A stretch of 28,103 nt of DNA from a virus. Location of the stretch: IMG/VR virus record IMGVR_UViG_3300042505_000610, positions 1 to 28,103 of that record. One strand, given 5' to 3'. This document shows, in pieces, positions 2,575 to 12,294 of this stretch; position 1 is the stretch's first letter; each line of letters opens with the position of its first letter. A program made the position numbers and the translations under genes. Under the pieces are notes generated by a model. It saw only the letters and a program-made list of their open reading frames with translations, made no database searches and had not been told where the DNA came from.

Positions 2575-3714
2575 TCACGGACCATAATACTTGAAGGTGA
2601 TGCCACCAGCAAGACCAGCACCAAAATGGGAACCACCACTACCGACAATTGTTCCAGAGCCAACAGTAAAACCGCCAGCAGAACCATTCCCCTGCGTTCC
2701 ATAGCCTCCGCCGCCGTTGCCGCCACGCAAACCGTATGCGCCGCCACCAGCACCACCGTTTCCGCCTACCTGAGAAGGAGAGTTGTGTCCCGTTGCGTTG
2801 CCGCCACCACCATCGGTGCCGCCGCCACCGCCGCAAGCATAATATCCACAATCCCAACAATAGTTATCTTGATAATACCCACCGTTGCAGGCTCCGTTCT
2901 TGTCAACGCTGGTACAAACAAAACTTTGCGAACAAACCTTATACCAACCATATGCATTTGTACCGCCAAGGTTGGATGGGTTTGAACCAGAACCAGCAGT
3001 ACCACCACGACCATTCGGCGCACCACAGGAGCCAGGATGTTCGCCAGCGGTGCCACCTCCGCCAGTCCAACTAGTAGACCCAATAGTCAGTGTCGTACTT
3101 CCACCAGAGGTGGCAGTACCAACACCAACACCACCGTTGCCTGCGGCACCACCACCACCGACAGAGCCGCTAATGGTTTGTGTTCCCCCAACAGAAGATT
3201 GATGGGAGGAAAACAGTCGGTAACCACCACCACCGCCGCCGCCATAGTTGGCTCCCCCGCCGCCGCCGTACAGCAACATTTCATAAACAACAGGAGCAAT
3301 CGCGTTATCAAGATACGGTGTAATGGACGGCAAACTCAAAGACCAAGAACCAGAAGTTGTATTTGTGTAGGTTTTCAAAGACCAAGTAGTAAAAGAGTTT
3401 GTTGCCCCAATGGTTGTCCCCGCTGCATTAACAGCCCTGCACCTGTAATAGTAGGTGGTGTTATTCAGCAACCCACTGGCATTATAGTATGCGTAATAGT
3501 TGCTTCCAGTAACCGTGACCCAATGTGTCACGGTTGAAAAAGAAGCAAACGAGGCACTGGTGGAGTAGTCAAAATAAACCGTGGTGTCATGCAAATTGGC
3601 GGAGACAAACGCGGAAAAGGTGCAGCGGTCCTGATTAAAGTTAGTTGCTGCTTGCGGCACAACGGTAGGAGGGAGTGCTACACCGCCAGCATAAAGCCCT
3701 CTGTGAGTCGGCAT
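2575..3714 (-). CDS. Fibre-tip-like protein: FN3-like domain plus polyglycine domain
   Basis: This is probably a virion adhesin that decorates or tips the collagen-like fibre encoded just upstream. Residues about 20-110 look like a fibronectin type III-type beta sandwich: aromatic and threonine-rich strands ending with the typical phrase TTYYYRCRAVNAAG. Residues about 145-370 are a glycine-rich domain with runs of four to seven glycines separated by small residues, as in polyglycine-II type receptor-binding tips such as gp38 adhesins of T-even-like phages. A cysteine cluster (residues 261, 267, 276, 286, 289, 294) lies inside the glycine domain and could form disulfides or bind metal. The start ATG overlaps the stop of the collagen gene (TAATG). 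Receptor binding is inference; the domain composition is visible. Confidence 0.82.
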   Translation of the reverse strand: MPTHRGLYAGGVALPPTVVPQAATNFNQDRCTFSAFVSANLHDTTVYFDYSTSASFASFSTVTHWVTVTGSNYYAYYNASGLLNNTTYYYRCRAVNAAGTTIGATNSFTTWSLKTYTNTTSGSWSLSLPSITPYLDNAIAPVVYEMLLYGGGGGANYGGGGGGGYRLFSSHQSSVGGTQTISGSVGGGGAAGNGGVGVGTATSGGSTTLTIGSTSWTGGGGTAGEHPGSCGAPNGRGGTAGSGSNPSNLGGTNAYGWYKVCSQSFVCTSVDKNGACNGGYYQDNYCWDCGYYACGGGGGTDGGGGNATGHNSPSQVGGNGGAGGGAYGLRGGNGGGGYGTQGNGSAGGFTVGSGTIVGSGGSHFGAGLAGGITFKYYGP

Positions 3715-4988
3715 TAACCAAGGTCCCCCATCAGGGCATACGCATTAGGGGCAATACACATCAGCGTTGCCGCCGAACCAACCGCCCTAAGGGATGTTGC
3801 GGGCGTTGAATACAGCGTAATCCCAGCACCAGCAGAAAACGAGACAGCACCAGCCCCAGTACGCAAAAAATCACAAGACTGACCAATATTAAATGCCGTT
3901 CCCGTATTAAGTGTTATCGTTGCAGCAGCCGTCACATTGTGAAAAACCCCGACCGCAGTGGGAGACAACGAAAGGCTTCCCCCGACACTCAAAACAGTTT
4001 GAACAGTCGTCCAGTCACCAGCAGGACCTTGCGGACCTGTAGCACCAGTAGCCCCAGTGGCACCAGTAGCACCTGTAGCCCCCGTAGCCCCAGTAGGACC
4101 AGTGGGTCCCTGTGGACCCGTATCACCCTGAGGTCCCTGCGGACCAATCGGTCCAGTAGCACCAGTCGGACCCTGAGGACCAACAGGACCAACATCACCC
4201 TGAATACCTTGAGGACCAGCAGGACCCTGAATTCCCTGTATGCCCTGCGGACCCTGAGAACCGACCGCACCAGAAAGATTCACAATCCAAGAAGAATAAG
4301 TACCCGAACCTTCGGTATCCGTAACAGTTGCAACCATGGCACCAGTACCAGCATTATAGGAATCAATTTCCGCGTGAATATGGTTAGGCACACTATGTGA
4401 AATCAAAATAGTTTGGTTGACAGAATAAGACAACCCAACACCAACCATCAAAGAAACAGTAGCCCCCACAGCGGGAATCGTAATTGTGCTAGTTGAAGTA
4501 GTTTCGTATTTGTCTCCAGCCAGACCCTGTGGACCTTGGGGACCCTGAACACCTTGCGGTCCCTGCGGTCCTGTAGGTCCAATCGGACCAGCATCACCCT
4601 GAACCCCCTGAGGACCAGTAGGACCAGTTGCCCCAGTTGCTCCAGTCAAACCAATCGGTCCCTGAGGTCCTTGAGGACCAGTCAAACCAATAGGTCCAGT
4701 AGCACCCGTAGGACCAGTAGGTCCAGTAGGACCCGTCAAACCAATAGGACCCTGAAGCCCCGTCAAACCGATGGGACCCTGCGGTCCTTGCGGACCAGTA
4801 ACCCCTTGGGGACCAACGGGTCCCACGGGACCCTGAGGACCCGTGGAACCCGTTGCGCCCGTTGCACCAGTCGCGCCAGTTTCCCCCTTGGGACCCATGC
4901 TTCCTGAAGCCACAAGGCTTATACCCTGACTGGTTACAACACCCGACAGTATGTTCCCTAGTTTAACATAAATTTCCGTAGTAGACAT
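3714..4988 (-). CDS. Collagen-like phage fibre protein, 424 aa
   Basis: This is a trimeric collagen-like fibre, probably a tail or side fibre. A 30-residue N-terminal segment is followed by Gly-X-Y triplets at residues 32-159. A globular beta-rich insert spans roughly 160-242, a second Gly-X-Y block 243-325, and a C-terminal beta-rich head runs to residue 424. The triplets are dominated by GPQ, GAT, GPT and GLT, usual for phage collagens, which trimerise without hydroxyproline. The start is taken at 4988 rather than an in-frame ATG ten codons upstream, because 4988 forms a TAATG overlap with the preceding gene and the extra codons would sit inside that gene. The C-terminal head probably nucleates trimerisation, and the glycine-rich gene that follows probably supplies the tip. 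Confidence 0.9.
4014..4262 (-). repeat. Second Gly-X-Y triplet repeat block of the collagen-like fibre
   Basis: In-frame nine-base repeats encode 27-28 Gly-X-Y triplets (residues 243-325). The DNA shows near-identical units such as five consecutive GAT triplets near residues 300-317, a likely site of copy-number slippage. Confidence 0.9.
4512..4895 (-). repeat. First Gly-X-Y triplet repeat block of the collagen-like fibre
   Basis: In-frame repeats encode about 42 Gly-X-Y triplets (residues 32-159). A longer motif of the type [13 protein letters not shown] recurs at least three times, so the array grew by duplicating units longer than one triplet. Confidence 0.9.
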
Positions 4989-5324: not shown

Positions 5325-5471
5325 CTAATACTCGTTTTGTTCTATCTTGAACGACTTGGCTCGCCGTTCCTTGGTGTCACGGTACTGCTCGCAGACAGGA
5401 CACCTGTAGTGGTCCACGCGGCGGATTTCCCAGCCACAGTTCTCACATTCGTCAATCTCGGGAAGATTCAC
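5325..5471 (-). CDS. Small zinc-ribbon protein, 48 aa (GTG start)
   Basis: This short gene encodes a rubredoxin-like zinc knuckle: CENCGWE, then RCPVCEQY, two CxxC pairs 14 residues apart, followed by a basic tail (KERRAKSFK). There is no in-frame ATG; GTG at 5471 is the best start, preceded by a purine-rich stretch. The start lies inside the end of the small terminase-like gene (20-nt overlap) and the stop is followed after one base by the next ATG, so it fits the operon exactly. Its place beside a terminase small subunit suggests DNA binding during packaging, or a late-transcription role, but this is inference. Confidence 0.65.
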   Translation of the reverse strand: MNLPEIDECENCGWEIRRVDHYRCPVCEQYRDTKERRAKSFKIEQNEY

Positions 5472-5874
5472 GGAAAGACTTCTCTTGGGTGGCTACGCTG
5501 GCAATAAGTTCCTCAAGGTCCTTGTCGGATATCTCCGCCAAAGACTGGGTATGGTTAATGTTAACCTGTGCAGGGGCAAGACGGTTGGTTGCCTGAAGGT
5601 ACAGTTGGGCGGCTTTATTGTCGCCGCCGAGCGCACGATTATAGATTTCGTCCAATAGTTTTTGGGTTCGTTCGGGGGACCCTTGGAGTTCGTCTACTCG
5701 TTTTTGCCATTCGGCTTTGAAGTGGGGTTTCTTTTCCCATCTCCTGAGGGTGGTTTCGTCCACGCTGTGGAGTTTGGCGTAGGCGGTTTTGGATGCGGGC
5801 TGTCGGTGTCCGTGCGGAATGAGGAGCCAGTTTAGGTAGGCTTCTTGTCGGGTGTCTAGGGTTGTTTCTTCCAT
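5452..5874 (-). CDS. terS: Putative terminase small subunit, 140 aa
   Basis: Small terminase subunits bind the packaging site on phage DNA and hand it to the large subunit. The protein has an N-terminal helix-turn-helix around residues 25-50 (tolerance to the host-style phrase SKTAYAKLHSVDETTLRRWEKKP). A helical oligomerisation region follows, with GDNKAAQLYLQATNRL near 84-99, a phrase typical of phBC6A51-type small terminases. The frame is open much further upstream, but the upstream codons run through the divergent control region, so ATG 5874 is preferred. It is the first gene of the leftward operon. Odd: five genes, including fibre genes, separate it from the large terminase at 1456. A plain HTH regulator is the alternative. 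Confidence 0.72.
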   Translation of the reverse strand: MEETTLDTRQEAYLNWLLIPHGHRQPASKTAYAKLHSVDETTLRRWEKKPHFKAEWQKRVDELQGSPERTQKLLDEIYNRALGGDNKAAQLYLQATNRLAPAQVNINHTQSLAEISDKDLEELIASVATQEKSFRESSRD

Positions 5875-5935
5875 ACTATTGGGTTGGCTGTTCTGATTGT
5901 TGACTGGTTTGGTCGGGAATAGAACAGCGGGGGGG

Positions 5936-5941
5936 ATTATA
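5936..5941 (-). promoter_or_regulatory. Candidate -10 box of the leftward operon
   Basis: A perfect TATAAT on the minus strand lies 62 nt upstream of the small-terminase start, in the only gap before this operon. No good -35 is present at 16-18 nt, so the promoter may need an activator or a phage sigma-like factor. Confidence 0.45.
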
Positions 5942-6023
5942 GGGGGGGTCAAGGAAAACTGTATTGACGGTACGAACCTTAGTGAGTACCGACAATGAAT
6001 ACTGTATACTAGGCTTAAGGATA

Positions 6024-6046
6024 GGTCCACCCAAGGTGGGTGGACC
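6024..6046 (+). promoter_or_regulatory. Perfect 9-bp inverted repeat, operator- or hairpin-like
   Basis: GGTCCACCC, five bases, GGGTGGACC. It sits between a TATACT hexamer (6005-6010) and the first rightward start codon (6078). It could be a repressor operator between the two divergent operons or a hairpin in the 5' leader of the rightward transcript. A weaker pair, CGGTAC/GTACCG, lies at 5968-5991. Confidence 0.5.
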
Positions 6047-6077
6047 CCCAAAACAGAACTATAGGCGGGGACAACCA

Positions 6078-6194
6078 ATGCGTATCATCAAGGCACTAGC
6101 GATTGTTATCGGGACCTTTTTTTGTTTGGTGCTAGCGTCCGTTATTTACCTGCTGAATGCCGCTAAAGACTTCCGCACAATTCCCCTAGACTAG
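6078..6194 (+). CDS. Small single-span membrane protein, 38 aa
   Basis: Residues 4-26 form one hydrophobic helix (AIVIGTFFCLVLASVIYLL region) after a short basic N-terminus (MRIIK). A short charged C-terminal tail follows. It is the first gene of the rightward operon, ten bases before the next start. It could be a membrane-anchored accessory such as a superinfection-exclusion or holin-like peptide, but size and topology alone do not decide that, and it lies far from the lysin gene. The start is supported by GGGGA eight bases upstream. Confidence 0.6.
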   Translation: MRIIKALAIVIGTFFCLVLASVIYLLNAAKDFRTIPLD

Positions 6195-6203
6195 GATGGT
6201 GTC

Positions 6204-6491
6204 ATGTTTGAGAATATGGTGAACAACCTGCCCGAATGGACCGAGGTCAGGGTTCGCTGGATGGATGCTCACGCACCAGCCAGCGGCTGGCACGACCTAG
6301 ACGAATACACCCCCGATGATGCGGTAGCGGTCACACTGGGGCGTATCTGGAAGGACTGCAAGCCGAACTATCTGACACTGGTCGGAACCATTTTTGAGGG
6401 TGACGACATGAAGATGGCTAGCGACATTAATCATATCCCGTTCGGAATGGTTTTGGACATTGAAATCATAAAGGAACCCCATGCCCGCTAA
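6204..6491 (+). CDS. Small conserved phage protein of unknown function, 95 aa
   Basis: The sequence has the pattern of a widespread small phage protein. VRVRWMDAHAPASGWHDLDE is followed by a short helix, a beta strand ending LVGTIFEGDD, and IPFGMVLDIEII at the C-terminus. The W-DA and G-W positions and the closing IP-G motif recur in such proteins in my recollection, but no function is established. It overlaps the next gene by 11 nt. No membrane segment or cysteine pair is present. Position at the start of the rightward operon suggests early expression. Confidence 0.75.
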   Translation: MFENMVNNLPEWTEVRVRWMDAHAPASGWHDLDEYTPDDAVAVTLGRIWKDCKPNYLTLVGTIFEGDDMKMASDINHIPFGMVLDIEIIKEPHAR

Positions 6492-6804
6492 TTCCACCCC
6501 TAGAGACCCTAGACTGCAACGCGCTGGTGTTAGCGGCTATAACAAGCCCAAGCGTACCCCCAGTCATCCAACCAAGTCCCATATTGTCGTCGCCAAAGTA
6601 GGGTCCACCATCAAAACCATCAGGTTCGGACAGCAAGGTGTCCGAACCAACCAGACACGCGGACAACAGGAAGCATTCAAGTCCCGCCACGCCAAGAACA
6701 TCGCCAAAGGACCCCTCAGTGCCGCATATTGGGCAGACAAGGTCAAATGGGACCCATCCAAAACTGCTGCACCCAAAAACAAGAAATGGGTTAAAGGCTC
6801 CTAA
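6481..6804 (+). CDS. Basic conserved phage protein, 107 aa
   Basis: This is a highly basic protein with the order GYNKPKRTPSHPTKSHIVVAK, TIRFGQQG, and FKSRHAKNIAKGPLSAAYWA, ending KNKKWVKGS. This arrangement resembles a small conserved family I recall from marine and freshwater phages, including cyanophages, annotated only as hypothetical. High K/R content suggests nucleic-acid contact. AAAGGA sits five to ten bases before the start, and the gene overlaps the preceding one by 11 nt. It is followed after six bases by the tRNA gene. Confidence 0.8.
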   Translation: MPANSTPRDPRLQRAGVSGYNKPKRTPSHPTKSHIVVAKVGSTIKTIRFGQQGVRTNQTRGQQEAFKSRHAKNIAKGPLSAAYWADKVKWDPSKTAAPKNKKWVKGS

Positions 6805-6810
6805 GATTAC

Positions 6811-6883
6811 CGCCCTTTAACTCAACTGGTAGAGTAGCAGACTTTTAATCTGACGGTTGCGGGTTCAAGCCCCGCAGGGGCGA
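6811..6883 (+). tRNA. tRNA-Lys(TTT)
   Basis: The full cloverleaf can be drawn. A 7-bp acceptor stem pairs 6811-6817 with 6876-6882 (one G-U). The D stem is around CTC/GAG at 6821-6834. The anticodon stem pairs 6838-6841 with 6849-6852, with a 27-43 mismatch, and the loop 6842-6848 carries anticodon TTT at 6844-6846. The T stem GCGGG/CCCGC is at 6859-6875 with a TTCAAGC loop. The discriminator base is A6883 and CCA is not encoded. It may supplement AAA decoding in the lysine-rich phage proteins. No integrase is seen, so use as an attachment site is unsupported. Confidence 0.93.
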
Positions 6884-7383
6884 CAACCCCACCCAACTAG
6901 GGTATCAAACCTTTATAATATAAGGTTCATATTGGCATGGACAACGCCGGCATTATGACGGCGGTCACATAATCGTTATGGTATCCCCAGAAACCAAAAT
7001 CATAACGCATCGGCTATGGGCTATAACTATATTACAGGCATGACGGGCGCGCCCCCCCATGCCCCCCCACCCGCATAGGCGACCCCATCGGAAAGTATCG
7101 GTAAACACTACCATAAAGCAATGGGTCATAATGACCTAAACAGGGGGGTCAGGCTCGTGATGCGGGCATGATGCGGGCATGACACCCGTGTCGTGTGTGT
7201 GGCGCACCTATGCGTGTTTTATGCGTGTCGTGTGTCATTGTGTGCATTATGCGGCGGGATGACGGTGGCTGGGTGTGACGGCGTAGCCGTCGCAAGGCGT
7301 GTGAACAGCAGTCCCGAACTGTTCCCAAATTTTTTCCCTTATTTCCCAAGGGTTTGCGGGGTGTTATGAAAATTAACATTTGC
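6884..7383 (+). other. Non-coding control or origin-like region
   Basis: No credible gene is present in this 500-bp stretch; the open frames on both strands have implausible composition. It holds AT-rich patches (6910-6930 containing TATAAT at 6914-6919 inside AACCTT/AAGGTT; 7326-7345; 7364-7385). It also has C-rich runs near 7050-7070, a perfect GGTCA-TAA-TGACC palindrome at 7124-7136, and several short direct repeats. A 6-bp hairpin with GTA loop is at 7277-7291. The mixture of AT-rich islands, palindromes and iteron-like repeats between early genes fits a replication origin or promoter region, but no box of a known initiator is recognised. Confidence 0.4.
7160..7235 (+). repeat. Short direct repeats, iteron-like
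   Basis: ATGCGGGCATG occurs twice in tandem at 7160-7170 and 7171-7181. CGTGTCGTGTGT occurs at 7187-7198 and again at 7224-7235. ATGCGTGT occurs twice around 7210-7228. They might be initiator-binding iterons; this is inference. Confidence 0.55.
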
Positions 7384-7880
7384 AATTGTGTCGGGTTTGC
7401 CCCATCATGTTGTCGGCTCGGTGCCTCGGTATCGGGTCGGGAGTTCCCCCGTTCGGCGGGGCGATACGGACTCCCCCGACTAGGAGCGATGGCGGGATGC
7501 CTCGGTGCCTAGCGGACCGTGTAGCGATGGCGCATCTTTGGTGCGTTCTGAGGCACGGGGCGACACACAATGCGGATTGCGCTCCGTGTGTCGCATTATG
7601 CTCTCGCCCCTCGTGGTGGCAGGGACACGGACCACGCTCGTACGCTATGTCGTGGGTTCCCCCGCGTCCTGCTCGCTCCCACGGATTATGGACTTCGTCC
7701 ATAATCAGGCTCCACCGAACGGCTCAGGTGGCGAGGGAATAGGAGTTCGTGACCTGCCCATCCTCGTAGAGGATGGATGACGGGTTTGGCACGGACCTCG
7801 TAGAGGTCCGTGGGGTGTTGGTTTGCCTCACGGACCTTGCGTTGCGATGTCCTTGCCGAACCTTACGGTTCGGAGCCGTG
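7384..7880 (+). ncRNA. Candidate large structured RNA
   Basis: There is no convincing gene, but the stretch is packed with exact helices. Examples are GTGCCTC 7421-7427 with GAGGCAC 7550-7556 and GTATCG 7429-7434 with CGATAC 7462-7467. CCCCG/CGGGG lies at 7447-7461, and GTCGGG 7436-7441 pairs with CCCGAC 7475-7480, which crosses the previous helix like a pseudoknot. GGGGCGA 7557-7563 pairs with TCGCCCC 7604-7610, and GCGACACAC 7560-7568 with GTGTGTCGC 7586-7594. CGTGGT/ACCACG spans 7612-7636. Hairpins follow at 7684-7706 (10 bp), 7758-7776 (8 bp), 7790-7812 (10 bp) and 7856-7873 (7 bp). Size, ornate folding, a phage setting and a nearby tRNA match the description of GOLLD/ROOL-type giant RNAs. 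Strand (+) and limits are inferred; membership is untested. Confidence 0.42.
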
Positions 7881-7885
7881 TATTG

Positions 7886-7967
7886 CCCCCACCATCATGG
7901 AATGATGGTGGGGGTGGTACTCATCTCCGATGAGTCAATCAACACAACCCATAACCTAGGAGGTTAT
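7886..7967 (+). promoter_or_regulatory. Three-hairpin mRNA leader, copy 1
   Basis: Hairpin A has 13-bp arms at 7886-7898 and 7902-7914 with loop GGA. Hairpin B is ACTCATC-TCC-GATGAGT at 7919-7935. Hairpin C is ATAACCT-AGG-AGGTTAT at 7951-7967 and places the strong Shine-Dalgarno AGGAGG (7958-7963) partly in its loop, seven bases before the ATG at 7971. A second copy stands before the ATPase gene. The arrangement suggests regulated or insulated translation. Confidence 0.7.
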
Positions 7968-7970
7968 ACC

Positions 7971-8243
7971 ATGCCCCATCATCAGCCCTTTCCCATCAAC
8001 AACGCCGAATGGTTCCCCGCGATGCGGGACCGTGGGTGGACCACGATGGAGACGCTGGACAGCACCGAGCCGAACCACTACGGTGGTGGCGGACACATCC
8101 TCATGCGGGAGTTCCACATGGCGGACGAGAACGGGAACTTCGCGGGTGTCGCCGTGAACGAGGTGTTCGTGGACAAGCGGGGCGAACTGCGGTCCAAGTG
8201 GTACTTCGTGCCGTTCATCCTCACCGCCGAGGACTGCCTCTAG
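7971..8243 (+). CDS. Unknown 90-aa protein behind a structured leader
   Basis: I do not recognise this protein. The start at 7971 is fixed by AGGAGG seven bases upstream; the longer open frame upstream passes through hairpins and is rejected. The product is soluble and mixed alpha/beta: a polar N-terminus (MPHHQPFPINNAEWF), a glycine run at 38-41, then beta-type segments ending WYFVPFILTAEDCL. No metal motif is complete, although two histidine pairs are present. It shares its leader architecture with the CobS-like ATPase gene that follows, so the two are probably co-regulated and may work together. The very strong ribosome site suggests high expression. Confidence 0.78.
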   Translation: MPHHQPFPINNAEWFPAMRDRGWTTMETLDSTEPNHYGGGGHILMREFHMADENGNFAGVAVNEVFVDKRGELRSKWYFVPFILTAEDCL

Positions 8244-8369
8244 TCCGATACGGAGTATCGGAACAGTCGGAGCCGTCTACTGTCCGCACCACCACGGAGT
8301 GGTGGTGCGGGTGGTACTCATCTCCGATGAGTAACAACACAATCCCAGCAACATAACCTAGGAGGTTAT
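8244..8369 (+). promoter_or_regulatory. Hairpin plus three-hairpin mRNA leader, copy 2
   Basis: TCCGATAC-GGA-GTATCGGA (8244-8262) directly abuts the stop of the preceding gene. It is followed by hairpin A (12-bp arms 8284-8295 and 8299-8310, loop GGA), hairpin B (8316-8332, identical to copy 1) and hairpin C (8353-8369, identical to copy 1, containing AGGAGG at 8360-8365). Hairpin A keeps its shape but differs in stem sequence from copy 1, which is compensatory change. Confidence 0.72.
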
Positions 8370-8373
8370 CACA

Positions 8374-9618
8374 ATGGCAAGCAAAGCCCCAATCATCGTC
8401 TCCGTGGACTTGTCCACGGAGCGCGTCACCTACCGTGAGGGTTCCCTCACCAAGACGGACCGTTTCGCCTACCTTTCCAAGGTTGGAAAGTTGGCGGCTC
8501 TGAAGCACCTCGGGTGGAGGTCCAGCGGGAAGCCCCCGATGCACTGCACCGAGACCGAACTTGCCCACGCATGGCAGGTCCTGATGCGTGAAGGCAAGGA
8601 CAACCAGCCCCAGCCCGAGGCACCGAAGGTGCCGACACCGACCAAGGAGGTCCCCATTCCCACCCAGCCCGCACCGCAGACGAAGTCTGCCCAGCCGAAG
8701 CACCAGCCCCAAGGTGGAACCTTGGAGCAGGCTCTCGGCGAGATTCTCGGTGGCATCGTTGAGGGTCGGTTCACCGAGGTGAACGCCGAGATGCAGTCAC
8801 TCCGTGACCTCATCGCCAAGACCCAGCCGAAGGTGACCGAGATTCACCTGCCCAGCGGCGAGACCAAGCGACTGGACGGAGTCCAGCACACGGTCTTTCC
8901 GACCGTTCTCGTGGGAATCTCCCAGCGTCTCCCGCTGTGGCTCGTTGGTCCCGCAGGGACTGGCAAGTCCACCATTGCCGAACAGGCTGCCCAAGCCGTA
9001 GGCTTGGAGTTCTCGTCTCGGTCCTGCTCGGCGCAGACGACCGAATCCAACCTGCTCGGGTTCATCTCGGCGAACGGCGACTATGTGGTGTCGGAGTTCC
9101 GCAAGCGGTACGAACACGGCGGCGTGTTCCTGCTGGACGAGGTGGACAACGGGAACCCGAATGTGCTGACGGTGCTGAACTCGGCACTGTCCAACTCGTT
9201 CATGGCGTTCCCCGATGGCATGGTCACCCGCCACAAGGACTTCGTCCTTGTCGCCACGGCGAACACATACGGCAACGGTGCCACCGCGGAGTATGTGGGG
9301 CGCAACCCGATTGACAAGGCGTTCACCGACCGATTCTCGGTCTTGGAGGTCGGGTACGACAACGCCGTGGAGGAAGCGATGCTTGCATCGGTTTCGCTGA
9401 CCAAGGAGGTTGCCACGAAGTGGCTGACCGTGGTTCGGAAGTGCCGTGCCAATGTGGCGAAGTCGGGTCTCAAGGTCGTGGTGTCGCCTCGTGCCACCTT
9501 GGCTGGAGCCAAGTGGCTGTCGGGTGGCATCCCGATGGAGACCGTGGTCTCCATGTGCATCCTCAAGGGCGCATCGCCTGACCAGTCGGCGAAGATTCTG
9601 GACGGGGTGGCTCTCTGA
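8374..9618 (+). CDS. CobS/MoxR-type AAA+ ATPase, 414 aa
   Basis: AAA+ ATPases of this group remodel protein partners using ATP. The N-terminal 75 residues form a small separate domain. Residues about 76-115 are a proline-rich linker. The AAA+ core has Walker A GPAGTGKST at 192-200, Walker B VFLLDEVDN at 251-259, sensor 1 VATANT at 292-297, and the arginine finger region DRF at 319-321. The closest general resemblance is to CobS-like ATPases, which in phages are often followed by a partner gene, as here. The start is fixed by AGGAGG eight bases upstream. The coding region carries many exact hairpins (8400-8421, 8709-8725, 8991-9007, 9233-9251). The actual substrate is unknown; a cobaltochelatase role in a phage is unlikely. 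Confidence 0.9.
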   Translation: MASKAPIIVSVDLSTERVTYREGSLTKTDRFAYLSKVGKLAALKHLGWRSSGKPPMHCTETELAHAWQVLMREGKDNQPQPEAPKVPTPTKEVPIPTQPAPQTKSAQPKHQPQGGTLEQALGEILGGIVEGRFTEVNAEMQSLRDLIAKTQPKVTEIHLPSGETKRLDGVQHTVFPTVLVGISQRLPLWLVGPAGTGKSTIAEQAAQAVGLEFSSRSCSAQTTESNLLGFISANGDYVVSEFRKRYEHGGVFLLDEVDNGNPNVLTVLNSALSNSFMAFPDGMVTRHKDFVLVATANTYGNGATAEYVGRNPIDKAFTDRFSVLEVGYDNAVEEAMLASVSLTKEVATKWLTVVRKCRANVAKSGLKVVVSPRATLAGAKWLSGGIPMETVVSMCILKGASPDQSAKILDGVAL

Positions 9619-9627
9619 GCCACCCCG
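9603..9627 (+). terminator. 11-bp hairpin across the ATPase stop codon
   Basis: CGGGGTGGCTC, loop TCT, GAGCCACCCCG; the TGA stop at 9616-9618 lies in the loop and 3' arm. There is no following T-tract, so it may be an attenuator, a processing site or a 3'-end stabiliser rather than a canonical terminator. Confidence 0.45.
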
Positions 9628-9647
9628 CCTAGCGGAACATAACAACA

Positions 9648-9660
9648 GAAACGGAGTTTC
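9648..9660 (+). promoter_or_regulatory. Shine-Dalgarno in a GGA-loop hairpin
   Basis: GAAAC-GGA-GTTTC places the ribosome site CGGAG in a three-base loop four to five bases before the ATG at 9664. It has the same logic as hairpin C of the two leaders upstream, but an unrelated stem sequence. Confidence 0.5.
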
Positions 9661-9663
9661 ACA

Positions 9664-10515
9664 ATGAAGATTGAGTCCACCAAGACAACACATTATGAAC
9701 TGTTCAGTTCATTCGGCGAGTTCATCGCTCGTGCGTCCAGCAACCGCGACCCGAGGTCGTCCGACAAGAAGTGGGACGACAAGAACTGGGCAAAGACCAA
9801 CACCCTCTCCGAGGGTGTCAAGTCCGCCAGTGTCGGCTACGCCGAGATTCGTCCTCAGGTCAACGCCATTATGGACATAATGGAGGAGCGGCTCGCGGAG
9901 AAGTTCGGCAACCGTTTCGTGACGCACTACGATGTGGCGGGTGCGTTCGTGGATGTCGGCAGGTTCGTCACTGGCGAGCCTGAGTGCATGGTGCAGTGGG
10001 CGGAGGAGCCGTCAGCGTCCATGGGTCGGGTCGTGAAGGTGTGCGTGGCTGGCACCGCCAGTGCCTCGGTCACATCCGAGGCAATCATCAAGCGTGGCAC
10101 CGCCATCGTGGCACTGCTGGACACCCTCCACAAGTTGGGTGTCGGCGTGGAACTGTGGTGGGATTCCACCATCAGTGGTGACAAGAACGACAAGAAGCAG
10201 ACGGTTTATAGCACCGCTGTGAAGTTGCACGATTCCTCGGAGCCGTTGGATGTGGACGCACTGATGTGGGCGGTCGCCCACCCGTCCATGCTCCGCAGGC
10301 TGGTGTTCTCGGTGCAGGAGCAGTCGGAGTACGCCGATGAGCAGGGCGCGAGGGAGTATGGCGGTTATGGTCACCCCACCTCGGTGGCAATGCCGTACAT
10401 TATGGACTTTGATGTGGTGGTTCACCACATCGTCCACGGGAGCCACGATGAGGTGGTGCGTGACCCGCTCGCTTGGGTCATCAGCAAGGTTGAGGGTCTC
10501 GGTTTCACCGAGTGA
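9664..10515 (+). CDS. Probable partner protein of the CobS-like ATPase, 283 aa
   Basis: The gene follows the ATPase after 45 bases in the same operon. The phrase YDVAGAFVDVGRFVTGEPECMVQW at about residues 89-112 resembles an uncharacterised phage family that I recall beside CobS-like ATPases. By analogy with CobS-CobT and MoxR-VWA pairs, it may be the substrate-recruiting or effector subunit. I see no clear VWA MIDAS motif (DxSxS), so it is not a standard CobT. No membrane segment is present. The RNA-level oddity is strong: exact hairpins at 9695-9712, 9800-9818, 9866-9883, 10411-10431 and 10498-10512 lie inside the gene. Confidence 0.75.
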   Translation: MKIESTKTTHYELFSSFGEFIARASSNRDPRSSDKKWDDKNWAKTNTLSEGVKSASVGYAEIRPQVNAIMDIMEERLAEKFGNRFVTHYDVAGAFVDVGRFVTGEPECMVQWAEEPSASMGRVVKVCVAGTASASVTSEAIIKRGTAIVALLDTLHKLGVGVELWWDSTISGDKNDKKQTVYSTAVKLHDSSEPLDVDALMWAVAHPSMLRRLVFSVQEQSEYADEQGAREYGGYGHPTSVAMPYIMDFDVVVHHIVHGSHDEVVRDPLAWVISKVEGLGFTE

Positions 10516-10529
10516 CACAGGAGAACATA

Positions 10530-10724
10530 ATGAAAGAGCCGATGTTTGTTGGTCACACCGATGTTCACGGAGGTTGGTGGGTTTTCTCGGATGCCCCCGA
10601 TGACCGTTGCCCGCACTGGTGGGATATCCGTGGATGGACATGGGGGGACTGCGCGGAGTTCCTCCACGAACCCAGCGATGCACACCGCATGGTGTGCCTA
10701 GCGTTGTCACCAAAGGTTTGGTGA
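10530..10724 (+). CDS. Small tryptophan-rich protein, 64 aa
   Basis: I do not recognise this protein. It contains seven tryptophans in 64 residues, arranged in GGWWVF, HWWDIRGWTW and a final W, plus three cysteines and several histidines. It looks like a compact aromatic-core domain. The ATG at 10530 has ACAGGAG seven bases upstream, so it is preferred over an in-frame GTG at 10512 that overlaps the previous stop. The 3' end lies in an exact inverted repeat at 10705-10726 that includes the stop codon. The next gene begins four bases later. Confidence 0.65.
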   Translation: MKEPMFVGHTDVHGGWWVFSDAPDDRCPHWWDIRGWTWGDCAEFLHEPSDAHRMVCLALSPKVW

Positions 10725-10726
10725 CA
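10705..10726 (+). repeat. 10-bp inverted repeat across a stop codon
   Basis: TGTCACCAAA, GG, TTTGGTGACA. The TGA stop (10722-10724) is in the 3' arm and the next ATG is at 10729, so the structure could control translation of the following membrane-protein gene. Confidence 0.6.
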
Positions 10727-10728
10727 TT

Positions 10729-10908
10729 ATGCGGTACATACCCGCCGCGATAGCGGCACTGGTGTTTTGCCTATTGGCAAAAGAAGTCTTTTCGGCAGAG
10801 TTTGTCTCCGCCGATTGGGAAACCCGTACCACAATCATCCTGATTGTGGGCGGGGCTGGATGCATTGTGGTTGACTCTGTCAACACAATCAGGAAAGGAA
10901 AGCAATAA
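10729..10908 (+). CDS. Small membrane protein with two spans, 59 aa
   Basis: Two hydrophobic segments are visible: residues about 3-21 (YIPAAIAALVFCLLAKEVF) and about 34-50 (TTIILIVGGAGCIVV). A short polar loop separates them, and the tail is basic (RKGKQ). This is the topology of small class-II-holin-like or accessory membrane proteins, but the gene lies far from the lysin, so a holin role is unproven. The stop overlaps the next start (TAATG). The coding sequence contains exact hairpins at 10765-10782 and 10829-10849. The start is downstream of the preceding hairpin, without a strong Shine-Dalgarno. Confidence 0.65.
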   Translation: MRYIPAAIAALVFCLLAKEVFSAEFVSADWETRTTIILIVGGAGCIVVDSVNTIRKGKQ

Positions 10909-11453
10909 TGGATAAGGCAATCAACCCACCTACGGTGGACGAGATGGAGACACGCTGGTCAGGCTTTGACCAAGCGTGGGGTGCGCTGTGGGAAAAGATG
11001 TTTTCCCACTTCACCCGCATTGAGGGTGCAGGCGTGTTCTCGGACGAGGCTTGCGCTCTCGGTGACGAGGTGATGGAGATTATGGAGGCTGTCCTCCATT
11101 TCCACGACAAGGACCGCAATCATATGCTGGTTTTCGGCTATGAGATGGGCTATGAGGACCGCTGTGCCGAACTCGCATCCAAGGCACCCGAGACACCCGA
11201 GGCACCCAAGCCCGTGGATGTGGATGCGGAACTGGAGGTACAGGTGACCGCACTGGTGCGGGTCACCCGCGACTGCCTGCCCGAGGGGATGTTCACCTGT
11301 GACGATGGGCTTTATGAACTGACCGATGAGGGTCGGGCGTGGTTCATGCAGGAAGCGTCACAGGTGACCGACTTCGGTCCGTACGAGTTCACGGTGGAAG
11401 ATGTGGACCTGCCGTGGGGGACTGACGGAGACTTCTTCCCTCATCCGTTCTAA
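10908..11453 (+). CDS. Acidic protein of unknown function, 181 aa
   Basis: I do not recognise this protein. The N-terminal half (1-90) is helical and acidic, with aromatic positions (WSGFDQAWGALWEKMF). A proline/glutamate-rich linker follows at about 92-106 (APETPEAPKPVDVD). The C-terminal half is beta-like and ends in a proline/phenylalanine-rich tail (DGDFFPHPF). The start overlaps the stop of the upstream membrane-protein gene and has AGGAAAGGAA upstream. Exact hairpins occur at 10988-11009 (9-bp arms) and 11243-11267 (11 bp with one bulged base). A structured non-coding stretch begins at its stop codon. Confidence 0.75.
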   Translation: MDKAINPPTVDEMETRWSGFDQAWGALWEKMFSHFTRIEGAGVFSDEACALGDEVMEIMEAVLHFHDKDRNHMLVFGYEMGYEDRCAELASKAPETPEAPKPVDVDAELEVQVTALVRVTRDCLPEGMFTCDDGLYELTDEGRAWFMQEASQVTDFGPYEFTVEDVDLPWGTDGDFFPHPF

Positions 11454-11626
11454 CCGCCGAGTTGCGGGAAAGCGGTTACAACGCTACCGTGTGTTGCACT
11501 GCCTGACAGGCGTGGTGTGCAAAGCGTTGAGTCTGTCACCAACCCATCCTCCCGATGGGTTGCGTTGTGTCCCACCCTTTTCGTGTTTGGGGTGGGGCAT
11601 AACGGAGTTCATCGGGAACTCCTTAT
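11451..11626 (+). promoter_or_regulatory. Structured 5' leader of the DUF3846 gene
   Basis: Between two genes lie five consecutive helices. They are TAACCGC/GCGGTTA (11451-11478, overlapping the upstream stop) and a three-tier stem at 11479-11529 made of CAACGCT/AGCGTTG, TTGCAC/GTGCAA and GCCT-GAC-AGGC. AACCCATC/GATGGGTT (11541-11561), CCCACCC/GGGTGGG (11571-11596) and ATAA-GGAGTTC/GAACTCC-TTAT (11599-11626) follow. The ribosome site (AAAGGGGA) follows outside the last helix. It may be a riboregulator or an RNA-processing element; no known riboswitch class is recognised. Confidence 0.5.
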
Positions 11627-11643
11627 CCTGAAAGGGGATTACA

Positions 11644-12294
11644 ATGCTGAAAGCAGGTTTGTTCCTGCCCACTGGGGCGGGTGTTACACCTGAGCCGTGC
11701 TTCGTGGACGGCTACGAGGACATCCAAGCGCAAGTCGGTGGACTGTTTGATGTGGTCGTCACCAGTCTTGGTGACGGTGACCGTGTCGCGTTCGTGGGTC
11801 ATGTCCATGACGAGGGGCTTCTTCTCGGACTGGAGATGAACTACCTCGCCACCGCACTGTTCCAGCGCGAGATTCGTGGCGGGTGCGTGGTCCTGTGGGG
11901 GCTGAACGAGGACGGCGTTTATGACGGCGACAATTATGACATCCCCGAGGAGATGTCCCGCTTCCTGTGCGAGGAACTGGTCGGCTTCGCCGCTGACACC
12001 TACAATCAGGCGGTGGTGCTTGACATTGCGATGCAGATGGTCGTGAAGGCGAACATCGCAACGCAGGAGGAGGTTGACGCAATCAAGTTTGACCTGTACC
12101 GTTTCGCCACGCTCCACATGGTGGAGGAACTGGTCGCCAAGGAGCGGGAACTGCGCTCCATGCTGGTGCAGTTGGGGGCGCACATCAAGCGAACCCACAA
12201 GGACGAGAACGAGGCTGAGACGATTATGTCTTGGCTGGCAGAAATGTGCGATATGTTGGGCAACGGACCGTTGTTCGGCGGAGAGGAAGACTGA
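11644..12294 (+). CDS. DUF3846-like protein, 216 aa
   Basis: Residues about 22-105 match the general pattern of DUF3846. The features are an N-terminal GYEDIQAQVGGLFDVV, then DEGLLLGLEMNYLATALF, and a beta strand ending CVVLWGLNEDG. Proteins of this family are common in phages and plasmids of Gram-positive hosts, and no function is established. The C-terminal half is helical and charged (about 115-195), with a methionine- and glycine-rich end (MLGNGPLFGGEED). It follows a long structured leader and has AAAGGGGA eight bases before the ATG, so its expression may be regulated at RNA level. The next gene begins two bases after its stop. Confidence 0.78.
   Translation: MLKAGLFLPTGAGVTPEPCFVDGYEDIQAQVGGLFDVVVTSLGDGDRVAFVGHVHDEGLLLGLEMNYLATALFQREIRGGCVVLWGLNEDGVYDGDNYDIPEEMSRFLCEELVGFAADTYNQAVVLDIAMQMVVKANIATQEEVDAIKFDLYRFATLHMVEELVAKERELRSMLVQLGAHIKRTHKDENEAETIMSWLAEMCDMLGNGPLFGGEED

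Follow-up and report, generated by a model that had tools for sequence, protein, structure and literature searches.

Two neighbouring genes of a virus, at 7971 and 8374, are preceded by leaders that carry the same three hairpins, A, B and C, in the same order. This arrangement raises the question of what a duplicated leader does at the junctions between genes. The window analysed here is the whole 28.1-kb virus record (28,103 nt, IMGVR_UViG_3300042505_000610).

The duplicated leader and its genome

The genes that follow the two leaders, and the next gene downstream, are:

7971..8243, + strand: small ORF of 90 aa, between leader copies 1 and 2
8374..9618, + strand: AAA_5 (MoxR/CobS-like) ATPase gene, phrog_249
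9664..10515, + strand: DUF7192 gene

A family search returned no match for the 90-aa ORF, and differing small ORFs occupy the same position in relatives. Farther downstream lie PD-(D/E)XK nuclease, DnaB-like helicase and primase-like genes, which together with the AAA_5 and DUF7192 genes form a replication module; a similar gene order is found in MW202803.1, annotated as a podovirus from a spring. Searching viral contigs with the AAA protein yielded 73 relatives, and the tree of this protein places the window within a 15-row clade (support 99/98). The sole match in a genome scan for hosts was distant and lay in a Sphaerotilus bin. Elsewhere in the window, a tRNA-Lys (6811-6884), in place of which many relatives have a tRNA-Asn, is followed by ~1 kb (to 7855) with many short hairpins and no convincing gene, and a long collagen-like Gly-X-Y repeat protein is encoded amid the structural genes (3714-4985, - strand).

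The elements of the two leaders (copy 1, 7870-7967; copy 2, 8267-8369), with the hairpins 0 at their upstream sides, are as follows:

7856..7873, + strand: hairpin 0, copy 1, CCGAACC-TTAC-GGTTCGG, at the upstream edge of leader 1 and overlapping the TCGGAG strand
7870..7930, + strand: irregular hairpin of copy 1, with a TCGGAG/CTCCGA lower stem, an internal loop, an 18-19 bp upper stem (extended A) and a GGA loop; candidate RNase III-type site
7880..7920, + strand: hairpin A with its extension, copy 1, 19 pairs
7886-7914, + strand: hairpin A core, copy 1, CCCCCACCATCAT-GGA-ATGATGGTGGGGG
7919..7935, + strand: hairpin B, copy 1, which competes with the lower stem; candidate hairpin for the 5' end left by cleavage
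7951..7967, + strand: hairpin C, copy 1, with the Shine-Dalgarno (SD) core GGAG in the loop and the start of the 3' arm, 3 nt before the ATG
8244..8262, + strand: hairpin 0, copy 2, TCCGATAC-GGA-GTATCGGA, immediately 3' of the small-ORF stop codon
8267..8327, + strand: irregular hairpin of copy 2, like that of copy 1
8284-8310, + strand: hairpin A core, copy 2
8316..8332, + strand: hairpin B, copy 2
8353..8369, + strand: hairpin C, copy 2, with the SD in the loop, 4 nt before the ATG

The preliminary description had reported this ordered leader before both genes, with B and C the same in the two copies and A differing while its pairing is preserved, and the sequence bears this out element by element. 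The leader consists of a direct repeat of 66 nt (86% identity, spacing 397 nt) plus an identical 18-nt block around C, and both copies fold more stably than shuffled sequences (z -5.8 and -5.5 for copies 1 and 2, respectively). The arms of A do pair as described, and only the stem lengths of 13 and 12 bp had to be revised, because TAYTG/TGGTA extends A to 18-19 pairs; the stems of 12-13 GC-rich pairs are already very stable (-24 kcal/mol). The covariation evidence for A comes from a comparison of the window's two copies, which align without gaps. Both bases differ in 3 of 13 pairs (one C-G to G-C, two T-A to C-G), 1 pair becomes G-T and none is broken. By hand arithmetic, the chance that three random changes in the 3' arm would meet changed partners with the right letter is ~5e-4.

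In the minimum-energy fold, TCGGAG (7870-7875; 8267-8272) pairs with CTCCGA (7925-7930; 8322-8327), and formation of this lower stem excludes hairpin B. No letter of the lower stem or of B differs between the copies, and hence these parts carry no covariation signal. Besides the window, the exact sequence of B was found in only two near-identical viral contigs.

The GGA loops of A had been likened to those read by CsrA/RsmA proteins, and both do match A-N-GGA (ATGGA and ACGGA). As an explanation, this likeness found no support, since GGA is not kept in the equivalent loops of relatives (AACGA, GAACGAAGTGA or TTA) and the record lacks csrA; reading of the loops by CsrA is scarcely credible.

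Hairpin C and the Shine-Dalgarno core

The SD core lies within the loop of C, as first described, and this proves to be a habit of the whole clade. In the window, the 17-mer of C occurs at two sites only (chance expectation 0.01 with up to 3 mismatches), and a third SD hairpin precedes the DUF7192 gene at 9664:

9648..9660, + strand: third SD hairpin, GAAAC-GGA-GTTTC

For the relatives, every orthologous leader was taken whatever its outcome, and a leader was counted when a stem of at least 5 pairs surrounded the SD. By this criterion, SD hairpins were found in 25 of 31 DUF7192 leaders and 27 of 36 AAA leaders, with 1.8 expected in each case. The comparison of leaders across related phages that the preliminary description had proposed thus gave, for C, different arms with retained pairing: each of the two leader sets contains 14 distinct hairpin arms. 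Most AAA genes of the 73 relatives have such a hairpin in front, for example TTTACCT-AGG-AGGTAAA, TAATTAC-TGGAG-GTAATTA, TGAAAC-GGA-GTTTCA and GCATGA-GGAGGAA-TCATGC. The excess extends to all SD-bearing ORFs of the relatives (188/796 vs 31 expected), to the window clade (41/111 vs 4.8) and to the clades with hammerheads and tRNA-like structures described below (52/186 vs 7.3), and is absent from distant phages with a related AAA domain (11/231 vs 8.5). A fixed-geometry set, picked for having the hairpin, showed 6 of 7 pairs changed on both sides. Alignment A4 was drawn from hairpin-bearing leaders, so that its 96% paired is biased and the all-leader count is the fair test; in alignment A1, of DUF7192 leaders, rows whose loop length differed were misplaced, and no counts were taken from it. 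On the strength of these sequence comparisons, hairpin C is a real, selected RNA structure whose sequence is free except beside the SD. The earlier claim of selection on structure is therefore supported, strongly so for C, which keeps its pairing in orthologous leaders despite changed arms.

Compensatory changes might also arise by mutation, if quasi-palindromes are perfected by template switching, with no selection involved. The short loops and perfect stems suit such a process, and A is represented by just two copies. However, template switching would not put SD cores into hairpin loops at start codons at the frequency seen in the DUF7192 leaders, nor would it spare the distant phages; it is largely refuted for C and, taken over the whole leader, very unlikely. 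Another possibility is that C and A are DNA operators, that is, palindromes bound by a repressor or activator. Both are perfect dyads, and the nearest known motif, ESAS, has been proposed as a DNA site (PMC3203893). Arms that vary freely while pairing holds are, however, the opposite of what an operator would show, the SD lies in the loop on the coding strand, and G-U pairs are present, which makes the operator reading highly improbable.

It had further been suggested that folding of C could gate translation. In such a scheme, the SD would be sequestered until a protein, an RNA or a change in temperature opens the hairpin. In C, as in dozens of orthologous leaders, some of the SD is indeed paired. 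The GGAG core nevertheless sits in the loop, the stability of C is modest (-5.3 kcal/mol; SD-hairpin stems, -2.5 to -6.4 kcal/mol) and suits presentation better than gating, and the same design precedes several unrelated genes; SD presentation or insulation is simpler. Because the sequences of C are not conserved, a sequence-specific regulator is unlikely. We regard gating as unlikely; it concerns C only and can be combined with cutting at A.

The closest described arrangement is that of Cluster K mycobacteriophages, whose SAS is a single 13-mer of fixed sequence, GGGATAGGAGCCC, said to be non-palindromic, with the SD inside, located at the start codons of non-structural genes only, about half of them with an upstream inverted repeat (PMC3203893, PMC12699233). 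The likeness is an SD-containing repeat a few nucleotides from the start codons of non-structural genes (in the window, 3 and 4 nt before the ATG of early genes on the + strand). In contrast to the SAS, the window and its relatives vary the sequence and keep the pairing, whereas the inverted repeats of the Cluster K ESAS lend no support to RNA pairing (PMC3203893). Read against the published SAS consensus with up to 2 mismatches, neither the C 17-mer nor the hairpins of relatives match.

Among viral contigs, the exact 17-mer of C was present in ten stretches, and outside the window's kin every occurrence lies 0-4 nt before an ATG in unrelated phages. Kinship of these occurrences was set aside, and they were taken as a good ribosome-binding site met by chance or convergence. 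In two contigs of 3.5-3.8 kb, ATAACCTAGGAGGTTAT stands directly before genes for 112- and 124-aa proteins (L005, 2108-2124, - strand; L010, 1413-1429, + strand), possibly coat genes of single-stranded RNA phages.

Hairpins, ribozymes and tRNA-like structures at the same junctions

Four junctions in the window's replication module (7880, 8278, 9598 and 11550) carry its strongest intergenic hairpins, with 19, 18, 16 and 29 pairs, respectively, all on the coding strand. The first two are the extended A hairpins, and the others are:

9598..9632, + strand: 16-bp hairpin spanning the AAA stop codon, upstream of the DUF7192 gene; z -4.4
11550..11617, + strand: 29-pair irregular hairpin upstream of gene 11644; z -7.2

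In searches of ~7 kb, the top-scoring hairpins fell at these junctions in 4 of 7 cases in the window, 3 of 3 in L025, and 2 of 2 in both L017 and L018. Stems at the junctions have 21 and 21 pairs in L017 and 15, 15 and 28 in L025; L018-L024 have 17-19 pairs at the DUF7192 and 11644 junctions, and L018, L022 and L024 have a bulged hairpin of ~20 or more pairs at the AAA junction. The hairpins at the 11644 junction of L018, L019, L020 and L022 are fully paired despite compensatory and G-U changes. The preliminary description had looked to relatives for preserved pairing in A, and the answer is mixed: 8 of 11 clade loci keep a strong hairpin, in unrelated sequence, at one or more junctions, and L012, L021 and L026 have no long hairpin at the junctions compared. 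Together with the AAA-junction hairpin of L020, reduced to 6 bp, these absences indicate that the long hairpin is dispensable in some members.

A, B and C showed no terminator-like site (a GC-rich hairpin with a T run), and the searched stretch of the window contained no forward promoter-like site. Four relatives (L054, L057, L058 and L063) have a TATACT box at the AAA junction, without a hammerhead or tRNA-like element there; a promoter possibly makes the 5' end in these phages.

In other relatives, type II hammerhead ribozymes are found, always on the coding strand and numbering at most three per phage, with the pattern GGAC-GAAA-stem III-UC, stem I, CUGAUGA-GUCC:

L033, coding strand: hammerheads at 5513, 5903 and 9081
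L035, coding strand: hammerheads at 5539, 5910 and 8953
L046, coding strand: hammerheads at 3803, 4082 and 6987
L029, L030, L031, L037, L041, L042, L047, L051 and L059: further carriers

A strict version of the pattern fits 86 viral stretches, and a covariance model (R1), applied to 40 relatives, gave 28 convincing sites, each of them on the coding strand. In an alignment of 16 hammerheads, the core is intact, 99.4% of pair cells are paired, and 12 of 20 pairs are changed on both sides. The sites found by model R1 include a weaker hammerhead-like variant before the 11644 homologue in L043 (8933-8989), L045, L048, L050, L052, L053 and L056; this variant keeps CUGAUGA, has an altered stem II and, in some cases, altered core pairs. 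In the window itself, the pattern is absent, and the best match of the model (E 0.034) lies within a structural gene and is unconvincing. The gathering thresholds of Rfam missed both the hammerheads and the leaders; applied to 5400-12000 of the window and to 12 relatives, Rfam reached threshold for tRNAs only, the remainder being low-score.

In L033, L035 and L046, hammerhead 1 precedes the small ORF, and hammerhead 2 starts on or beside the stop codon of that ORF, before the AAA gene. These are the places of the window's two leader copies, and the place of copy 2 is also taken by hammerheads in L047 and others. The third hammerhead precedes the homologue of window gene 11644, where the window has its 29-pair hairpin. 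If 4 of ~20 junctions are taken at random, the agreement of all three hammerhead junctions with hairpin junctions of the window has p ~0.004, a value whose numbers were set after seeing the data, the coincidence having been noticed post hoc.

A third kind of element, a tRNA-like structure without a D arm, occupies the AAA junction in 10 relatives by model and 16 by pattern:

L064, 5873-5926: tRNA-like structure upstream of the AAA gene
L065, 5379-5437: tRNA-like structure upstream of the AAA gene
L029, 5841-5894: tRNA-like structure upstream of the AAA gene
L043, 5864-5917, and others: tRNA-like structure upstream of the AAA gene

It consists of an acceptor stem and a T arm with a 7-nt loop (TTCAATT or TGCAATT) and has no CCA. 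At the AAA junction the model matches with E ~1e-15 to 1e-9, and 10 of 17 pairs are changed on both sides. Weaker matches (E 0.003-0.014) precede the small ORF in L014, L015, L025, L064 and L065; these fold as tRNA-like structures, and their carriers include members of the window clade. The model found no match in the window. RNase P recognises acceptor/T-arm mimics. The 15-row window clade has no hammerheads and no tRNA-like element at the AAA junction, and labels of hammerhead, tRNA-like or neither on the AAA tree require six changes in total. C, the hammerheads and the tRNA-like elements all show covariation, and the last two share their positions with the long hairpins.

Sharing a junction with a ribozyme is not proof of sharing its job. 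The long hairpins may remain uncut and stabilise mRNA ends or insulate each ribosome-binding site, like the tandem 5'-UTR stem-loops of the ompA type, and the hammerheads of relatives would then be a different solution at a place that tolerates structure. In most relatives, ORFs are bracketed by stop-codon hairpins and 5' hairpins; hammerhead cleavage itself would leave hairpins at both new ends; and the stability of the GC-rich A stems fits protection as well. However, 16-29 pairs exceed what end protection needs, and the agreement with hammerheads at three junctions would be an accident. We consider this alternative possible, though doubtful. The same agreement also speaks against template switching, which would not place hairpins at hammerhead junctions.

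Transcript cutting as the proposed function

Our preferred reading, to which we assign a probability of roughly 55%, is that the leaders punctuate a long phage transcript, which is cut at A by a host enzyme of the RNase III type. Since relatives carry hammerheads or tRNA-like structures at the same junctions, A most likely marks the cut site, and the common factor at these junctions is best read as RNA that is, or could be, cut. The cutting itself, the nuclease responsible and a switch from A to B are what we infer from these structures, and the junction genes would be co-transcribed. A (18-19 bp, probably together with the lower stem) would serve as the double-stranded site for the endonuclease, and cutting would separate the small-ORF, AAA, DUF7192 and 11644 messages. 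A cut in or near the internal loop would free CTCCGA, so that B could form at the new 5' end as protection, while hairpin 0 would protect the 3' end of the upstream message; with its loop, C would then present the SD core a short way ahead of the start codon. At these junctions, sister phages would rely on hammerheads or on tRNA-like structures, the latter possible substrates of RNase P or a different tRNA nuclease. Duplication of the leader is consistent with a junction module having been copied to another junction, where the copy may have replaced the tRNA-like element that clade relatives keep before the small ORF.

Each of these elements resembles a known kind. In T7, R1.1 is an RNase III site of 60 nt that lies between two genes and has an internal loop of 4/5 nt (PMC6121014). 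The likeness, which was drawn for the window's own hairpins, is a ~60-nt (61-nt) irregular hairpin with an internal loop between early genes, with an intergenic position at the window junctions 7880, 8278, 9598 and 11550; a helix of ~20 bp, as expected of sites of the R1.1 type, is predicted by the 18-19 bp upper and 6-bp lower stems of the minimum-energy folds. The window differs in that its sequence is unrelated and B competes with the lower stem of its candidate sites. Type II hammerheads are on record from phages and prophages; several flanking phage genes had been noted earlier, and transcript processing was proposed for them; HHphage, for example, lies 13 nt upstream of the helicase start in haloviruses HF1/HF2 (PMC3088659). 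The window's relatives resemble these phages in having intact type II hammerheads, several per phage, at the junctions considered here, whereas the window has long hairpins in their stead. The acceptor stem and T arm found in relatives at the AAA or small-ORF junction resemble tRNA-like structures processed by RNase P, but these candidate sites lack the D arm and CCA, and the window has none.

In open papers, we did not find described a case of hammerheads and other processing elements taking each other's place at shared junctions, nor a clade-wide hairpin-held SD. The parts are of known kinds, and, as far as these papers go, the exchange and the clade-wide hairpin ribosome-binding site appear to be new. 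There is about an even chance that, in one clade of small podovirus-like phages, hammerheads, tRNA-like structures and long RNase III-type hairpins are interchangeable processing modules at orthologous junctions, spread by copying, alongside a clade-wide SD in the loop of a freely varying hairpin. The role of hammerheads in phages and bacteria is a long-standing question on which this exchange bears: if it is true that ribozyme, tRNA-like element and hairpin replace one another, their shared task is very likely transcript cutting. The hairpin-held SD is a second rule, one of translation start, that holds across the clade.
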